From Kocuria sp. (GTDB taxonomy: Bacteria > Actinomycetota > Actinomycetes > Actinomycetales > Micrococcaceae), in NCBI RefSeq assembly GCF_030536815.1, contig NZ_JAUNPE010000009.1, forward strand, positions 1 to 41,875: a stretch of 41,875 bases of DNA, written 5' to 3'. The stretch's first letter is position 1. Each line of letters starts with the position of its first letter. Positions 12,414 through 16,825 of the stretch are shown in pieces. Both the position numbers and the translations under genes were made by a program. Under the pieces are notes generated by a model. The model ran no database searches, was not told the DNA's origin, and saw only the letters and a program-made list of their open reading frames with translations.

Positions 12414-13466
12414 GTGGTACGAGTGGAGCAGAACTCCGAAACTCGGAACGACCGGGTGCGCGGCCATGATTTCGGTCTCCCACCGGATCCCGCAGCACAA
12501 ACAGAAAAGGTTGTTCCGGACCGAGGACGTCACGTTTCACGTGAAACAGACACCCCGCACGGTACGGCAGCGCAGCAGGCAGTAGCGGATACCGCTCTTG
12601 GGAGGAAGCTCGTGGAAGAGAATAAACGTCGTGCACGACTTAGGCAGACCAAGATCGATCCCCCTGCTGAAACCCGGTACATCACGATCAGTAATCAAAA
12701 GGGTGGCGTGGGTAAGACCAGCACCTCCGTGAACCTGGCTGTCGCACTGGCTCAACAGGGCCAGAACGTCTTGGTCATCGATAACGACCCGCAGGGCAAT
12801 GCGTCCACTGCCTTGGGAATTCCGCACGGCACGGATGTCGACAGTGTCTATGATGTTCTGATTGACGAGACTCCGATCGTAGATGTTGTTCAGAAGTCGC
12901 CCGAAATGGAGAATCTCTGGGTGCTGCCGGCCACCATTGACCTCGCCGGGGCGGAGATCGAACTGGTCTCAGTCGTGGCACGCGAACAACGGCTCCAACG
13001 GGCGCTCAAGGAATACGGGAAAGCCCGCGAAGAACGGGGCGAGACCCGCTTGGACTACGTGTTCATCGACTGCCCGCCGAGTCTTGGACTTCTGACCATC
13101 AATGCGTTCGTTGCTGCCACCGAGGTACTCATCCCCATTCAATGTGAGTACTACGCATTGGAGGGTCTGAGTCAGCTCCTGAACAACATCACCATGATTC
13201 AGAAGCACCTGAACCCCGACTTGTCCGTGTCCTCTATTCTCTTGACGATGTACGACGGCCGTACCAACCTTGCCTCTCAGGTGGCCGATGAAGTGCGGCA
13301 ACACTTCCCTGACCAGGTCATGGACACGATGATTCCGCGGTCGGTGCGGATATCCGAAGCCCCGAGCTATCAGCAAAGCGTCATTACGTACGACCCGAGC
13401 TCCACCGGTGCCCTGTCCTATCTCGAAGCAGCTGCCGAACTGGGAGCGCGCTCTCCCAAACCCTAG
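12414..13466 (+). CDS. parA: chromosome-partitioning ATPase ParA
   Basis: Walker-type ATPase that moves ParB-parS complexes apart. 350 residues. Seen: a poorly conserved N-terminal extension (about 1-85), the deviant Walker A KGGVGKT at 96-102, the DNDPQGNAST Walker A' region, FIDCPPSLGLLTINA, and a C-terminal helix with PRSVRISEAPSYQ. The GTG at 12414-12416 has GGAGAGGA (12402-12409) before it. A parS-like palindrome at 12533-12548 falls inside the N-terminal extension and encodes VSRET at residues 41-45. Like the sites in parB, it uses a stretch of protein that is otherwise poorly conserved. It heads a parA-parB pair, although a terminator at 13527-13561 lies between the two. Confidence 0.96.
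   Translation: MVRVEQNSETRNDRVRGHDFGLPPDPAAQTEKVVPDRGRHVSRETDTPHGTAAQQAVADTALGRKLVEENKRRARLRQTKIDPPAETRYITISNQKGGVGKTSTSVNLAVALAQQGQNVLVIDNDPQGNASTALGIPHGTDVDSVYDVLIDETPIVDVVQKSPEMENLWVLPATIDLAGAEIELVSVVAREQRLQRALKEYGKAREERGETRLDYVFIDCPPSLGLLTINAFVAATEVLIPIQCEYYALEGLSQLLNNITMIQKHLNPDLSVSSILLTMYDGRTNLASQVADEVRQHFPDQVMDTMIPRSVRISEAPSYQQSVITYDPSSTGALSYLEAAAELGARSPKP
12533..12548. other. parS site 1 (inside parA, one mismatch)
   Basis: CGTTTCACGTGAAACA, one base away from the consensus TGTTTCACGTGAAACA. It lies in the N-terminal coding part of parA and is translated as V-S-R-E-T. Confidence 0.8.
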
Positions 13467-13472
13467 GCACCA

Positions 13473-13488
13473 TGTTTCACGTGAAACA
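13473..13488. other. parS site 2 (after parA)
   Basis: Perfect TGTTTCACGTGAAACA, six bases after the parA stop codon and before the intergenic terminator. Confidence 0.95.
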
Positions 13489-13526
13489 CGCACGGATAGC
13501 CGTTTGAAGCCGTAGAACAGCTATGG

Positions 13527-13561
13527 AGGGCCGCGAACTTGCCGAGTTCGCGGCCCTTTTT
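13527..13561 (+). terminator. intrinsic terminator after parA
   Basis: A perfect 13-bp stem (13527-13539 AGGGCCGCGAACT with 13545-13557) with a 5-base loop ends in TTTTT (13557-13561). It should end or attenuate parA transcription, so parB probably has its own promoter in 13562-13717. Confidence 0.9.
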
Positions 13562-13606
13562 ACGTCCAGGTCATTAAGGCTCCAGCTGGACATCGGCCAG
13601 TTGCGA

Positions 13607-13622
13607 TGTTTCACGTGAAACA
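13607..13622. other. parS site 3 (parA-parB intergenic)
   Basis: Perfect TGTTTCACGTGAAACA about 100 bases upstream of the parB start. It is placed where ParB binding could also affect the parB promoter. Confidence 0.95.
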
Positions 13623-13717
13623 ACGACCCGAAACACGGCGCCGCATGGCCCAGGCGGTGCAAGCGGACGGCCGCACGTGGATAAGATGAACGTCGGAGAT
13701 ATGACGAAAGGATTCAC

Positions 13718-15499
13718 GTGAGCGAGAAACGACGAGGTCTGGGTCGCGGCCTTGGAGCCCTGATTCCCAGCGGTCCGGCATCGGCCGCCGAAACGACTAC
13801 CGCAGACAGCGGCACGACGACGGTCAAGACGGAATCACCAGAACAACGGCAGGGACGAGCGCGGACCGGAACAAGCAAGAATTCCGCTGCGTCGGATGCT
13901 GCATCAAGTAAACCCCGTACCGAGCAGGAATCCGTGAAGGCCAACTTGGAGACGCCCCCCACGAATAAAAGGAACGAGCAAAAGGGAGCCCAACAACCCG
14001 CCCGAGGGCGGTCTGTCGAATCTGCCGGTAAGAAGAACAAGACGGCCGGAGACACGACCGGCGCGACGCCGAAGAGGTCGGGTGATAATGCCCCGGCGCA
14101 AACAAAGGAGACAGCTGCCGAGGTTACCGGGAAGAAGCCGAGTGTTTCACGTGAAACATCGCCCGAATCCCGCGGCGTGAGCAAGGGGACTAAACCCAGC
14201 GCACGTTCGCGACGCGACATGGGTCAGGCCTTGAGAAGTACGACCAGTGTCCGCCGTCCGGTGGACATGTTCTTCCTTCCCTCCGATGAGCCCGAAGGAA
14301 ACGACGAATCGGAACCCTCGACGTCGCCCGTCAATGGGCCACCATCACATGAGCTCAATGAATCGCCGGGAAATAAGGTTCAGCACGATGTTTCACGTGA
14401 AACATCGGATACCTCTCGGACTACGATCGCCCAGGGTCGTGATGGAACGACGGCAGAAGACCCACCGGCGAAAAACACCAAGTCTTTCGATGCAGCGTCC
14501 GCACCCAACGAGTCCCGTAATGCGCGCGGCGCGGTTAGCAGGCAAAGCAGTCTGCCCCAGCAAGCACCGAACGGCCGTACGGACTCATCCCGGGCGGCAG
14601 ATTCAGACCCGAATGTTTCACGTGAAACATCTGCCAACTTCGAGGACGATACCGACCCGAGCCAACTCGGGGCCGTACCGGGCGCGCAGTTTGCGGAAAT
14701 ACCTGTCGCCGACATCCACCCCAACCGGAAACAGCCTCGGCAGGTATTCGATGAGGATGAACTGGCTGAGCTTGCCTTCTCCGTGAAAGAACTCGGAGTC
14801 CTGCAGCCTGTCGTGGTGCGGCCCAGCCGCGAGGGAGAGGGTGCAAAGTACGAACTGGTTATGGGCGAACGGCGCTGGCGTGCCGTTCAGAAGGCCGGAC
14901 TGGATTCCGTCCCCGCGATCATCCGCGAAACCGCGGATGACGATCTCCTGCGTGATGCCCTCCTGGAGAACCTGCATCGGTCGCAGCTGAATCCCCTGGA
15001 AGAAGCGGCCGCTTATCAGCAGCTGTTGGAGGAATTCGGTGCCACGCAGGACGAGCTCTCCCGCCGCATTGGCCGGTCTCGTCCGCAAATCTCCAATACC
15101 CTCCGCCTTCTACGCCTACCACCCCTGGTTCAACGCCGCGTCGCGGCCGGGGTATTGAGCTCCGGTCACGCGCGGGCATTACTGGGTCTGACCGATCCCG
15201 CAGACATGGAGCGTCTGGCGCAGCGGGTAGTAGCGGAGGGCATGTCCGTGCGAGCCACGGAGGAAACGGTGGCGCTGTCGGACGGACTTAAGCGTCACGG
15301 GACCAAGCGCAAGAGTGCTACCCATCGTCATGACGATCGACTCAACTACATTGCAGATGCTTTCTCGGATCGTTTGGACACGAGCGTCAAGATTCAGCTG
15401 GGTGCACGCAAGGGCAAGATGACCATTGAGTTTGCGTCCGTGGAGGACTTGAACCGCATCATCGATGTCTTGGACCCAAAAATGGAGGACCAGAGCTAG
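13718..15499 (+). CDS. parB: chromosome-partitioning protein ParB with long disordered N-terminus
   Basis: CTP-dependent DNA clamp that loads at parS. 593 residues against a usual 280-380. Residues 1-16 (SEKRRGLGRGLGALIP) are the conserved ParA-interacting leader. Residues about 18-322 are a Ser/Thr/Glu/Lys-rich, probably disordered insertion. The ParB core begins near 325 (FAEIPVADIHPNRKQPRQVF), with the CTP-binding GERRWRA motif at 383-389, the ENLHRSQLNPLEEA region, the helix-turn-helix GRSRPQISNTLRLLRL, and a C-terminal dimer domain. Three perfect parS sites lie within the insertion and encode VSRET at residues 143-147, 225-229 and 300-304. GTG start at 13718 with AAAGGA upstream. The frame is intact throughout. 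Confidence 0.96.
   Translation: MSEKRRGLGRGLGALIPSGPASAAETTTADSGTTTVKTESPEQRQGRARTGTSKNSAASDAASSKPRTEQESVKANLETPPTNKRNEQKGAQQPARGRSVESAGKKNKTAGDTTGATPKRSGDNAPAQTKETAAEVTGKKPSVSRETSPESRGVSKGTKPSARSRRDMGQALRSTTSVRRPVDMFFLPSDEPEGNDESEPSTSPVNGPPSHELNESPGNKVQHDVSRETSDTSRTTIAQGRDGTTAEDPPAKNTKSFDAASAPNESRNARGAVSRQSSLPQQAPNGRTDSSRAADSDPNVSRETSANFEDDTDPSQLGAVPGAQFAEIPVADIHPNRKQPRQVFDEDELAELAFSVKELGVLQPVVVRPSREGEGAKYELVMGERRWRAVQKAGLDSVPAIIRETADDDLLRDALLENLHRSQLNPLEEAAAYQQLLEEFGATQDELSRRIGRSRPQISNTLRLLRLPPLVQRRVAAGVLSSGHARALLGLTDPADMERLAQRVVAEGMSVRATEETVALSDGLKRHGTKRKSATHRHDDRLNYIADAFSDRLDTSVKIQLGARKGKMTIEFASVEDLNRIIDVLDPKMEDQS
14143..14158. other. parS site 4 (inside parB)
   Basis: Perfect TGTTTCACGTGAAACA in the parB insertion, encoding V-S-R-E-T at residues 143-147. 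Confidence 0.95.
14389..14404. other. parS site 5 (inside parB)
   Basis: Perfect TGTTTCACGTGAAACA in the parB insertion, encoding V-S-R-E-T at residues 225-229, in the same reading frame as site 4. Confidence 0.95.
14614..14629. other. parS site 6 (inside parB)
   Basis: Perfect TGTTTCACGTGAAACA near the end of the parB insertion, encoding V-S-R-E-T at residues 300-304, about 20 residues before the ParB core. Confidence 0.95.
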
Positions 15500-15558
15500 C
15501 TAGCACTTGCGGGGCCATGGCCCGAGGCATGAGTCTTGCCGATCGGCCCCGCAGACAA

Positions 15559-15598
15559 AAGTGGCCCCGATGTTTCACGTGAAACATCGGGGCCACTT
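15559..15598. terminator. bidirectional terminator-like palindrome between parB and the cwlM-like gene
   Basis: A perfect 40-base palindrome (20 bases per arm, centre between 15578 and 15579, outer arm AAGTGGCCCCGA) lies between the convergent genes. On the minus strand it ends in TTTT (complement of 15557-15560), so it is most likely a terminator for the minus-strand gene. On the plus strand there is no T-run. Its central 16 bases are a perfect parS site. Confidence 0.7.
15571..15586. other. parS site 7 (centre of the terminator-like palindrome)
   Basis: Perfect TGTTTCACGTGAAACA forming the middle of the 40-base palindrome at 15559-15598, downstream of parB. Confidence 0.95.
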
Positions 15599-15619: not shown

Positions 15620-16825
15620 TCAGTTCGAGTTGTAGTAGTCCTCAATGTCCGACAAACTCATGGTGCCGGTCGCAATGTTATCGGCGGACCGAACGTACAT
15701 TCGCTGTAGCGCGCACAGGATGGATTCCGCCAAGCGCTCCCGGTGTTCGGGGTTCTCGAGATTGATCCGTTCGGCGGCGCTTGAAAGATAACCCAGGTCA
15801 ATCCACACGGTGGGGGCATTCGAGTAGCGCAAGAGCTCCCATTGACGAGCGTGACAACCGAGATCCTGGGCGCCGGTACGGGAGATCAGTTCCTTGAGAA
15901 TGTACCGTGCTGCGGTTTCACCAATGGGAGAGAAGGTCTCAGCACCATCTTGGTCACCCCAGTAATAGGTGGCCACGCCATTGGCTGACTCCGAGGCGTT
16001 CCAGTCACAATGAAGTGTCAGTACGAGCGCGTCGGGGTGTCCCTGGGTGGCCGCGGCCTTGGACTCGACCGTGCGGACCGGTTCGCCGGACCTGGTCATG
16101 TAGCTACCGGTGCTGAGTATCACCGGTGACGCGCCCACGTTGTTCAGCAGCTCGTACGTGCGCAGGGCAACGTCGGTCGTAATGCGCTCTTGGTCAGCCG
16201 TGAACTGTTCGGGTGCCGTGGGGGAGATAGCTTGACCGGAAGTGGACCAGGGCAGCAGGATGATCACACGCTGCTTCAGGGCGTTGGTGGCCTGTTCCAA
16301 ACGGTGGTAATCACGCAGCGAGTAGGCCTTGGACGACGTAATGTTCTTGTTGATGCGTGCAAGCGCCGCAATTGTTTCGAGATCCACCACGCCATCGGCC
16401 TCGAGGCCCAGGTTCTGCTGCAGTTCCACCACTGCGTAGTGGGTCTTGCGGCAGAACACCCCATTGAGGTGACCGTAGTAGAAACCCAACCGAGACAGGT
16501 TGGCTTGAATGAGTTCAACGTCCTCGCCGCGCAGGGGGTGCTCGGCGTCGTAGAACAATGGGCGGTCGCCCAGGGTGTACTGGGCTTGCGTCAGAGCGGT
16601 CTCGGTTTCGGGGCCGAGCACGCCGTCCACGATCAGCCCCTTGTTCTGCTGGAAGATCCGCAGGGCGCCGTCGAGCGTCTCATCAAAGTGTGACGGGTCT
16701 TTGACGGCGTCCGGGGACAGACCAGTGGCACCCTCGCTGGCGCGGATGAGGCGTTCGCGAAGCCCCACCACGCGCCGGTCGGTCACTCCCAGACGCAGGT
16801 TGGCCGCATGTGGCTCGGATGTCAC
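15620..16825 (-). CDS. CwlM-like cytoplasmic pseudo-amidase with two peptidoglycan-binding domains
   Basis: 401 residues, no signal peptide. Two PG_binding_1-like domains (about 12-80 and 95-158, each with the DGVLGPETETAL or DGVVDLETIAAL pattern) precede an Amidase_3-like domain (about 185-380). Active Amidase_3 enzymes have a DPGHGG zinc histidine, which here reads LLPWSTSG (190-197). The catalytic glutamate in the usual VELGF motif is aspartate here (D343 in IDLGYLSS). The other likely zinc ligands, E213 and H272 (LHCDWN), remain. Location beside trxA-trxB and near parB matches mycobacterial CwlM, a cytoplasmic regulator of MurA, so a regulatory role is inferred. GTG start at 16823-16825 with GGGGGAAG upstream. 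Confidence 0.85.
   Translation of the reverse strand: MTSEPHAANLRLGVTDRRVVGLRERLIRASEGATGLSPDAVKDPSHFDETLDGALRIFQQNKGLIVDGVLGPETETALTQAQYTLGDRPLFYDAEHPLRGEDVELIQANLSRLGFYYGHLNGVFCRKTHYAVVELQQNLGLEADGVVDLETIAALARINKNITSSKAYSLRDYHRLEQATNALKQRVIILLPWSTSGQAISPTAPEQFTADQERITTDVALRTYELLNNVGASPVILSTGSYMTRSGEPVRTVESKAAATQGHPDALVLTLHCDWNASESANGVATYYWGDQDGAETFSPIGETAARYILKELISRTGAQDLGCHARQWELLRYSNAPTVWIDLGYLSSAAERINLENPEHRERLAESILCALQRMYVRSADNIATGTMSLSDIEDYYNSN

Follow-up and report, generated by a model that had tools for sequence, protein, structure and literature searches.

Are the parS palindromes inside the parA and parB genes of Kocuria kept for the peptide they encode or for the DNA itself? The locus lies in the window, the whole stretch of 41,875 bases that was analysed. 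We conclude that it is very probably the chromosomal centromere of a Kocuria species, with a parS cluster packed into its own parA-parB genes and with four of the sites, which are also coding, kept as DNA.

The parA-parB locus

The parA gene (12414..13466, forward strand) encodes a Soj-type ATPase (PF13614, 6.8e-59) with an N-terminal extension of ~90 residues ahead of the P-loop. As expected of a ParABS member, it has the deviant Walker A motif (KGGVGKT) along with the PF13614 domain, adjoins parB and is located near the origin. The gene upstream of parA is rsmG, identified by PF02527; from the open reading frames of the window we take other neighbours to be yidC and jag.

The parB gene (13718..15499, forward strand) codes for 593 amino acids, with a GLGRGL motif, a disordered linker, a CTPase domain carrying the GERR motif, an HTH and a C-terminal domain. 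Pfam matches over the cut-off were PF02195 (residues 324-420), PF17762 (423-519) and PF23552 (548-585), and GERRWRA was invariant across 30 ParBs. Residues R455 and G483, both invariant in 30 aligned ParBs, are the equivalents of Caulobacter R173 and G201 (a hand count on the alignment to 6t1f), which the accessible part of PMC7383237 gives as parS- rather than NBS-specific. Judged by this alignment, the ParB encoded here carries the parS-specific residues. Its residues 16-313 (13763..14656, forward strand) form a linker predicted to be disordered, with AlphaFold2 pLDDT mostly <50 and without secondary structure. In the linkers of the genus, tyrosine and tryptophan each round to 0.0%.

The parS sites in the window and in the assembly

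The whole window was scanned with the 16-bp palindrome pattern TGTTNCACGTGAAACA, which gave six exact sites and one with a single mismatch. Perfect copies of TGTTTCACGTGAAACA, listed like the other palindromes without strand, are located at 13473..13488 (6 bp past the parA stop), 13607..13622 (95 bp 5' of the parB start), 14143..14158, 14389..14404 and 14614..14629 (all three inside the linker-coding stretch) and 15571..15586. The seventh site, with mismatch T1C, is at 12533..12548, in the N-terminal extension of ParA. Beyond these seven, no match with up to three mismatches was found in the window. The sequence-only reading had reported these same seven sites, four of them encoding V-S-R-E-T at ParA residues 41-45 and ParB residues 143-147, 225-229 and 300-304; every coordinate was reproduced by the re-scan, and the numbering is correct for starts at GTG 12414 and GTG 13718.

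The cluster spans 3.05 kb of the locus. Shuffled versions of the window had on average 0.12 sites and 2 at most, and seven were reached in 0 of 100 shuffles. When the 2.87 Mb assembly (349 contigs, 94.9% complete) was searched at up to two mismatches, only the same seven sites appeared, all in the parAB locus, and a reversed-pattern control on this assembly gave 0 matches.

Conservation of the coding sites

Across the genus, all 27 genomes had between one and five parS-like sites per parB linker, 70 in total at up to two mismatches. Shuffling of synonymous codons in these linkers produced 1.1 sites on average and a largest total of 5 in 200 shuffles. Together with the window shuffles, this rules out a chance origin of the sites.

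Within the group that joins the window with the three relatives nearest to it, the aligned places of the first two linker sites were kept in all four members; the third was also present in all four, the copy in L093 having two mismatches (VPRET). The codons of parS were 97% identical in the group, and the codon was retained in every comparison where the amino acid was identical. The remaining linker had 33% amino-acid identity with a codon retention of 0.35, and the ParB core 95% identity with a retention of 0.46. Thus, the linker sites are conserved as DNA independently of coding. The palindromes are conserved far more than the surrounding protein, and their number varies between species. Conservation above that of the protein and a variable number were the two signs by which the sequence-only reading proposed to recognize functional parS, and the alignments of relatives support that reading of the internal sites.

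These data also bear on the idea that a spreading palindromic repeat left the sites behind as remnants with no centromere function. Site positions do differ across species groups, as such a repeat would have it. However, the sites in the assembly are restricted to parAB, the strong conservation of the linker copies is confined to the 16-bp core, and codons are nearly invariant at parS in the group, whereas the ParB core keeps its codon in less than half of the comparisons. We consider this origin highly improbable.

Could VSRET instead be a functional peptide motif, with the palindrome incidental? The use of a single frame by all 70 linker sites of the genus, and by all of its parA sites, would agree with it. 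Yet all 58 VSRET peptides in the genus linkers are encoded by 16-mers within two mismatches of parS and none is encoded otherwise, while the exact parS codons have a probability of 7.9e-6 under the codon use of the genus ParA and ParB cores. The other named loci behave likewise (32 of 32 within two mismatches), so that VSRET written with other codons, the observation that would have told against functional sites, was not found in either set.

The mismatch spectrum points the same way. Among 189 coding sites, the inner wobble positions 4, 7, 10 and 13 were changed twice, and positions 5 and 12, where a change alters the amino acid, 20 times; 366 noncoding sites had 3 and 32 changes at these positions, respectively, all being counts over related species and not independent events. 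The 189 leave out one linker site of L083 that is in the stop frame by annotation, and the 366 leave out upstream sites (1 in the genus, 76 in other loci). The sites of the spectrum were picked by similarity to parS (up to two mismatches); the peptide-based search, which is free of that limit, agrees. In L106, which has a single linker site within two mismatches, all eight sites around parAB (six noncoding, two coding) share a GTTCCAC-type half-site, and the coding copies become VSRGT. Variants that change the amino acid thus occur where parS tolerates them. Given this spectrum and the codon exclusivity we reject the peptide motif, which retains hardly any probability.

For the site in parA the signal is weaker. 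Of the 27 genus loci, 19 have a site 52-53 codons ahead of the P-loop, and all 19 sites are in the VSRET frame. In the extension, the window's own group had a codon constraint of 0.80 at parS vs 0.855 in the surroundings, i.e. no excess, and conservation at the DNA level independent of coding therefore appears weaker than for the linker sites. A parA start downstream of the site (GTG 12612, with an SD-like stretch), which would place the site in the 5' UTR, is disfavoured because relatives conserve the extension ahead of that GTG at the protein level. Taken as a whole, by every sequence test the parS sites qualify as selected DNA elements.

Reading frame of the coding sites

One frame of parS has a TGA stop and the others read VSRET and FHVK; the sequence-only reading was correct on the in-frame stop and on the use of VSRET by all four sites. 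The linker site of L083 was the sole one in the stop frame among all loci. In the class sample, the N-terminal sites of parA were in the VSRET frame in 49 cases vs 6 in FHVK. Gene calls upstream and downstream in the other named loci gave 24 FHVK, 7 VSRET and 1 third frame, but these calls of the GC3 caller are few and doubtful. The FHVK excess there fits a composition effect, opposite to that in the linker, and was not used as proof.

The VSRET frame is shared because one frame has a stop, FHVK is unlike the composition of the linker and VSRET suits it. In this frame the naturally free positions 1 and 16 of parS fall on wobble positions. That a single frame is used is a by-product and requires no special mechanism.

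Hairpins of the locus

Between parA and parB, a 16-bp hairpin running into TTTTT (13525..13559, forward strand; fold of -28.5 kcal/mol) is a probable parA terminator, unlisted by the terminator scan; therefore, parB is probably transcribed on its own too. Past the end of parB, a 40-nt perfect inverted repeat (15559..15598, no strand) has an 18-bp stem and an ACGU loop, and the perfect parS at 15571..15586 makes up its inner stem and loop. The gene that follows (15620..16825, reverse strand) encodes an N-acetylmuramoyl-L-alanine amidase with PG-binding domains and is convergent with parB, as in all 27 genus loci.

The predicted fold has -34.4 kcal/mol on the forward and -36.9 kcal/mol on the reverse strand, and the arms covary among relatives; this hairpin was also unlisted by the scan. 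A canonical U-tract was not found at 15559-15598: the window has TT on the forward and TTTT on the reverse strand, and most relatives lack the tract. We regard the element as probably a bidirectional terminator fused with parS, a prediction that goes beyond the sequence-only reading. In the literature searched, mostly judged from less than the full text, a combination of parS and ParB with a transcription terminator at convergent genes was not found. A parS in a hairpin behind parB would couple ParB loading with transcription termination at one spot.

The internal sites could also serve chiefly as operators, ParB clamps inside parA and parB hindering RNA polymerase so that ParB limits its own synthesis. 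Sites in both genes, in the gap between them and in the probable terminator are in line with this, and the BCG authors, in the accessible part of PMC2346475, suggest that ParB at the parS of parA may block transcription or translation. Unlike an operator, however, the linker sites vary in place and number across species groups, and other loci have such sites kilobases beyond the 3' end of parB, where the DNA shows little coding-like signal. We consider a chiefly operator role unlikely.

Distribution among Actinomycetes

At least two parS inside parB were observed in 26 of the 27 genus genes compared to 0 of 55 loci sampled across the class, which bears out the earlier impression that this density is unusual. 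Per 100 residues before GERR, the genus had 0.69 sites, compared to 0.22 for the other named loci and 0.15 for the class sample, so the notion that a longer linker alone gives more sites is partly rejected. Linker length and site number showed no joint rise within the genus (Spearman -0.38, p 0.05) and were weakly related in the other named loci (0.19, p 0.10).

Outside the genus, in 46 Micrococcaceae loci, the linker sites were negatively correlated with sites downstream of parB (Spearman -0.63). This trade-off, like the association of long linkers with two or more sites, is to be read as a pattern, since supported branches offer no more than 5 or 6 independent pairs, too few for significance in a sign test. 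Places other than the linker can also work: L007 (Kocuria polaris MS50-16, outside the 27) has zero linker sites at up to two mismatches, and its parA-parB gap holds six. One extra parS ~30-34 kb away was present in six of the 27 genus genomes.

A probable centromere within coding DNA

If the locus works as established for the family, the ParB HTH would recognize each 16-bp palindrome, and ParB would load there as a CTP-dependent clamp and slide outward; the sliding clamps would tag the origin for segregation by ParA and for the loading of SMC. Four palindromes double as protein, and selection would preserve the 16 bp while the peptide is tolerated. The coding sites occupy spots where a VSRET insert should be harmless, the ParA N-terminal extension and the disordered ParB linker.

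More tentatively, and with considerable doubt, the linker may be kept long in this genus chiefly as DNA hosting the centromere; ParA and ParB would then make up, along with almost all parS, one self-contained 3-4 kb cassette closed by the parS-terminator hairpin. In relatives such as Arthrobacter, such sites would instead lie in a long region past parB that shows little coding-like signal. This would suggest a reason for a clade's unusually long disordered ParB linker. The locus would offer a clean natural case of one DNA stretch being centromere and gene at once, with two separable constraints: synonymous recoding would remove the centromere site and leave the protein unchanged.

Comparison with known systems

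The statements below follow the accessible parts of the cited papers. In Bacillus subtilis, parS-359 sits inside parB (spo0J) (PMC4442127), the single internal parS of that gene being TGTTCCACGTGAAACA (PMC4333373). The present locus is similar in having parS inside the gene for the protein expected to bind it. It differs from B. subtilis in that a long disordered linker hosts three such sites, parA has a further one and a hairpin another, and every site of the assembly falls in the locus. Mycobacterium bovis BCG has two putative parS, one in parA and the other upstream of gidB, and none in parB (PMC2346475); the parA site is thus a shared feature, while the parB sites are not.

Intragenic parS are also described for Pseudomonas aeruginosa, with 9 of 10 predicted within coding sequences (PMC4368675), and for Corynebacterium glutamicum, where 1 of 10 (parS1) is in trpCF coding DNA (PMC7083940), but neither is described with a cluster in the partition genes. 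In repABC replicons, parS occur inside ORFs downstream of repC, and the authors hypothesise positive selection within coding sequences (PMC9040568); those are plasmids or chromids with another consensus, and their parS are not inside the ParB homologue. In the literature searched, which was mostly judged from less than the full text, no description of a parB with several internal parS was found. A single parS in parA or in parB has already been published, while a cluster within parB appears new.

parS Sites and Their Host Protein

The window comes from the origin side of an actinobacterial chromosome and contains rsmG, parA, parB and a convergent amidase gene. The sequence-only reading had listed seven parS sites between 12533 and 15586, one with a single mismatch and the other six perfect; our scan recovered all of them, against 0.12 expected. 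Three are inside parB and one is 3' of it; the parA-parB gap has two, and the N-terminal extension of parA one. As had been claimed, all four coding sites encode V-S-R-E-T at the assigned ParA and ParB residues. A search of the whole assembly at up to two mismatches gave no parS beyond the seven of the parAB locus.

The ParB protein (593 aa) starts with a GLGRGL motif, a motif described as ParA-contacting in the part of the source consulted (PMC12207404), and carries its CTPase, HTH and C-terminal domains between residues 324 and 585. In the AlphaFold2 model (30 aligned sequences), residues 16-313 had pLDDT mostly below 50 and lacked secondary structure; ten-residue blocks averaged 78 to 95 in residues 321-520 and 53 to 72 after 520. 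In the linkers of the genus A, S, T, P, G, R, E and D abound; F makes up 1.2% and I 0.5%, and both Y and W come to 0.0% after rounding. The window's ParB has the family domains together with the GERR motif and the residues specific for parS. Proteins of this family load at parS as CTP clamps, slide, and recruit ParA and SMC; the window's ParB would do likewise, and the conservation of the coding parS copies as DNA suggests that it would load there too.

Constraint at the DNA Level in parB

We took the parAB locus from 26 further Kocuria genomes, giving 27 genus loci with the window. Other named loci were the best 80 of 580; after removal of L005 and L008, which repeated genus genomes, 78 remained, with a parB start in 76. 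All 27 genus parB genes had linker parS within two mismatches (one site in one gene, two in eleven, three in fourteen and five in one), so that the site number does vary among relatives, from 1 to 5, as the functional reading had anticipated. These 70 sites (26 perfect, 30 with one mismatch, 14 with two) uniformly used the VSRET frame; two more sites were situated at the linker-core border. Synonymous-codon shuffles within each linker produced a mean of 1.1 sites and a maximum of 5 in 200 trials, compared to 70 in the real sequences, with shuffled linkers scanned via the exact CACGTG core and real ones without that restriction.

VSRET encoded by other codons, which would have spoken against parS function, was not found: in a peptide-based search 58/58 VSRET peptides of genus linkers and 32/32 in the 76 other named loci were within two mismatches of parS. 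Near-variants at more than two mismatches (VPRGT, VSRGT and VPRET in the genus loci L104, L106 and L107; VPRET in L030 outside the genus) kept much of the parS DNA.

The palindrome also proved more conserved than the surrounding protein. Identity at parS codons was 97% among the window and the three relatives nearest to it, with the codon kept in every comparison where the amino acid was identical, against a protein identity of 33% and a codon retention of 0.35 in the rest of the linker; the ParB core, at 95% identity, had a codon retention of only 0.46. For three other groups, codon retention was 0.92, 0.84 and 0.87 at parS versus 0.45, 0.54 and 0.39 in the linker, while amino acid identity at the sites was only 0.72, 0.65 and 0.89; there the sites move, and many alignment columns have a site in some species only. 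By all the sequence tests applied to them, the linker sites are real and selected as DNA. In the parB of L108, three parS-like sites with two mismatches each are spaced by 10 codons at residues about 265-285, which suggests local duplication.

Reading Frame and Tolerated Changes

One parS frame contains TGA, another, open one encodes FHVK, and the third encodes VSRET. Given the linker composition outside parS, the per-residue mean log10 frequency was -1.10 for VSRET and -1.66 for FHVK. The FHVK frame is not forbidden in general (6/55 parA N-terminal sites of the class sample use it), and the common VSRET frame needs no separate mechanism.

In the VSRET frame, parS positions 1 and 16 are third codon positions. 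Among 189 coding sites from the genus and the other named loci these varied 67 and 82 times, and positions 5 and 12, where changes are nonsynonymous (S to P, E to G), 12 and 8 times; the inner wobble positions 4, 7, 10 and 13 had 2 changes in total. The corresponding numbers in 366 noncoding sites from the gap, the 3' side and downstream were 130, 132, 11 and 21, with 3 at the inner wobble positions. Judged by these profiles, which are the same, the changes tolerated in coding copies are those of the DNA site.

In L106 (3261-5487, oriented coordinates), the eight parS found near parAB (two coding, six noncoding) all have one GTTCCAC-type half-site, and the coding copies read VSRGT because each carries one such half. 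The protein thus follows the genome's form of parS where this shifts. The variants are asymmetric, and a search of this genome at up to one mismatch from the consensus gave no site.

Distribution of Sites

The density of sites inside parB, called unusual from the sequence alone, is indeed so: at least two linker sites occurred in 26/27 genus genes versus 0/55 in the class sample, where 45 loci had none, 10 had one and none had two. This sample comprised 60 loci, 55 of them annotated (L174, L200, L204, L208 and L209 were dropped; L173 was counted despite a faulty domain coordinate). Of the 76 other named loci, drawn from the best 80 of 580, 46 lacked a linker site, 25 had one and 5 had two. Since a parS located in the parA frame ahead of the P-loop occurs widely in the class, the Kocuria arrangement is an extreme of something common.

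The 161 genus sites within two mismatches were distributed over parB (72), the parA-parB gap (43), the region 3' of parB (26), parA (19) and upstream (1). With up to one mismatch allowed, 112/117 sites of 25 genus genomes were within the parAB locus (121/127 with G039 and G040 added). Each of six genomes (G005, G006, G010, G011, G023 and G040) had a single additional site, some 30-34 kb off on the parA side, the main contig of G006 being taken as circular. Beyond 150 bp downstream of parB, the stretch examined contained no site in the 27 genus loci, compared to 236 in the other named loci (best 80 of 580). Across Micrococcaceae, linker and downstream sites showed an inverse pattern, not phylogenetically secured. 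In L075 (7233-13218) and L034 (7182-13176), several kilobases downstream of parB show little coding-like signal and contain scattered parS, 11 of them within one mismatch in L075; downstream sites are numerous in other Arthrobacter-type loci as well.

In parA, the contrast in codon conservation between parS and its surroundings is weaker than in the parB linker. In the window's group parS (0.80) was not above the whole extension (0.855); two other groups had 0.95 and 0.94 versus 0.69 and 0.80 for the surroundings. The entire extension (12414-12611) had 0.855 compared to 0.529 for the core in the window's group, a hint of further DNA- or RNA-level constraint. Other actinobacterial parA frames with putative starts (L077, L154, L172 and L180) contain between two and four parS-like sites ahead of the P-loop, most of them VSRET, so that parA may also have coding clusters of several sites.

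The Hairpin 3' of parB

The parS at 15571 is at the centre of a perfect 40-nt inverted repeat (15559-15598) between parB and the convergent amidase, folding at -34.4 kcal/mol (+) and -36.9 kcal/mol (-). The likeliest reading is a terminator, bidirectional in Kocuria. The convergent amidase was present in 27/27 genus loci, and 25 of 27 had a parS between the two genes, no more than 150 bp past the parB stop. An amidase match was found in only 8/78 other named loci (best 80 of 580), 1.8-4.2 kb away; being so rare and distant, it would leave a hairpin there to serve parB alone.

Arms of at least 14 bp occurred at 19/26 sites 3' of parB in the genus and 27/38 elsewhere, compared to 1/70 genus linker sites; with 13/43 genus gap sites, they are not confined to the parB end. 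In the genus, pairing at the ten arm positions outside parS was 84%, and 59 double-change cells were counted (61% and 18.2 in shuffles); elsewhere it was 83%, with 161 such cells (45% and 57.2), values reached by 0 of 500 shuffles in either set. Kinship alone can beat shuffles without structure, but pairing slid by 1-3 positions drops to 39-50%. At linker sites pairing was no better than in shuffles (41% against 41%, 38% against 37%). A canonical U-tract after the hairpin is mostly missing. A separate hairpin with a TTTTT tail is situated 3' of parA (13525-13559).

Comparison With Known Systems

A literature search, with subscription papers mostly outside its reach, found neither several parS in one parB nor parS as a terminator stem described. 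The portions of the reports consulted place one putative parS inside parA in Mycobacterium bovis BCG (PMC2346475), 9/10 predicted parS in coding DNA in Pseudomonas aeruginosa (PMC4368675), 1/10 in Corynebacterium glutamicum (PMC7083940), and ORF-internal parS in repABC replicons (PMC9040568). Coding parS as such is therefore already known, and several inside one parB appear to be new: Bacillus subtilis parB, as far as the same reading of sources goes, contains a single internal parS (PMC4442127, PMC4333373), whereas the parB of the window contains three.
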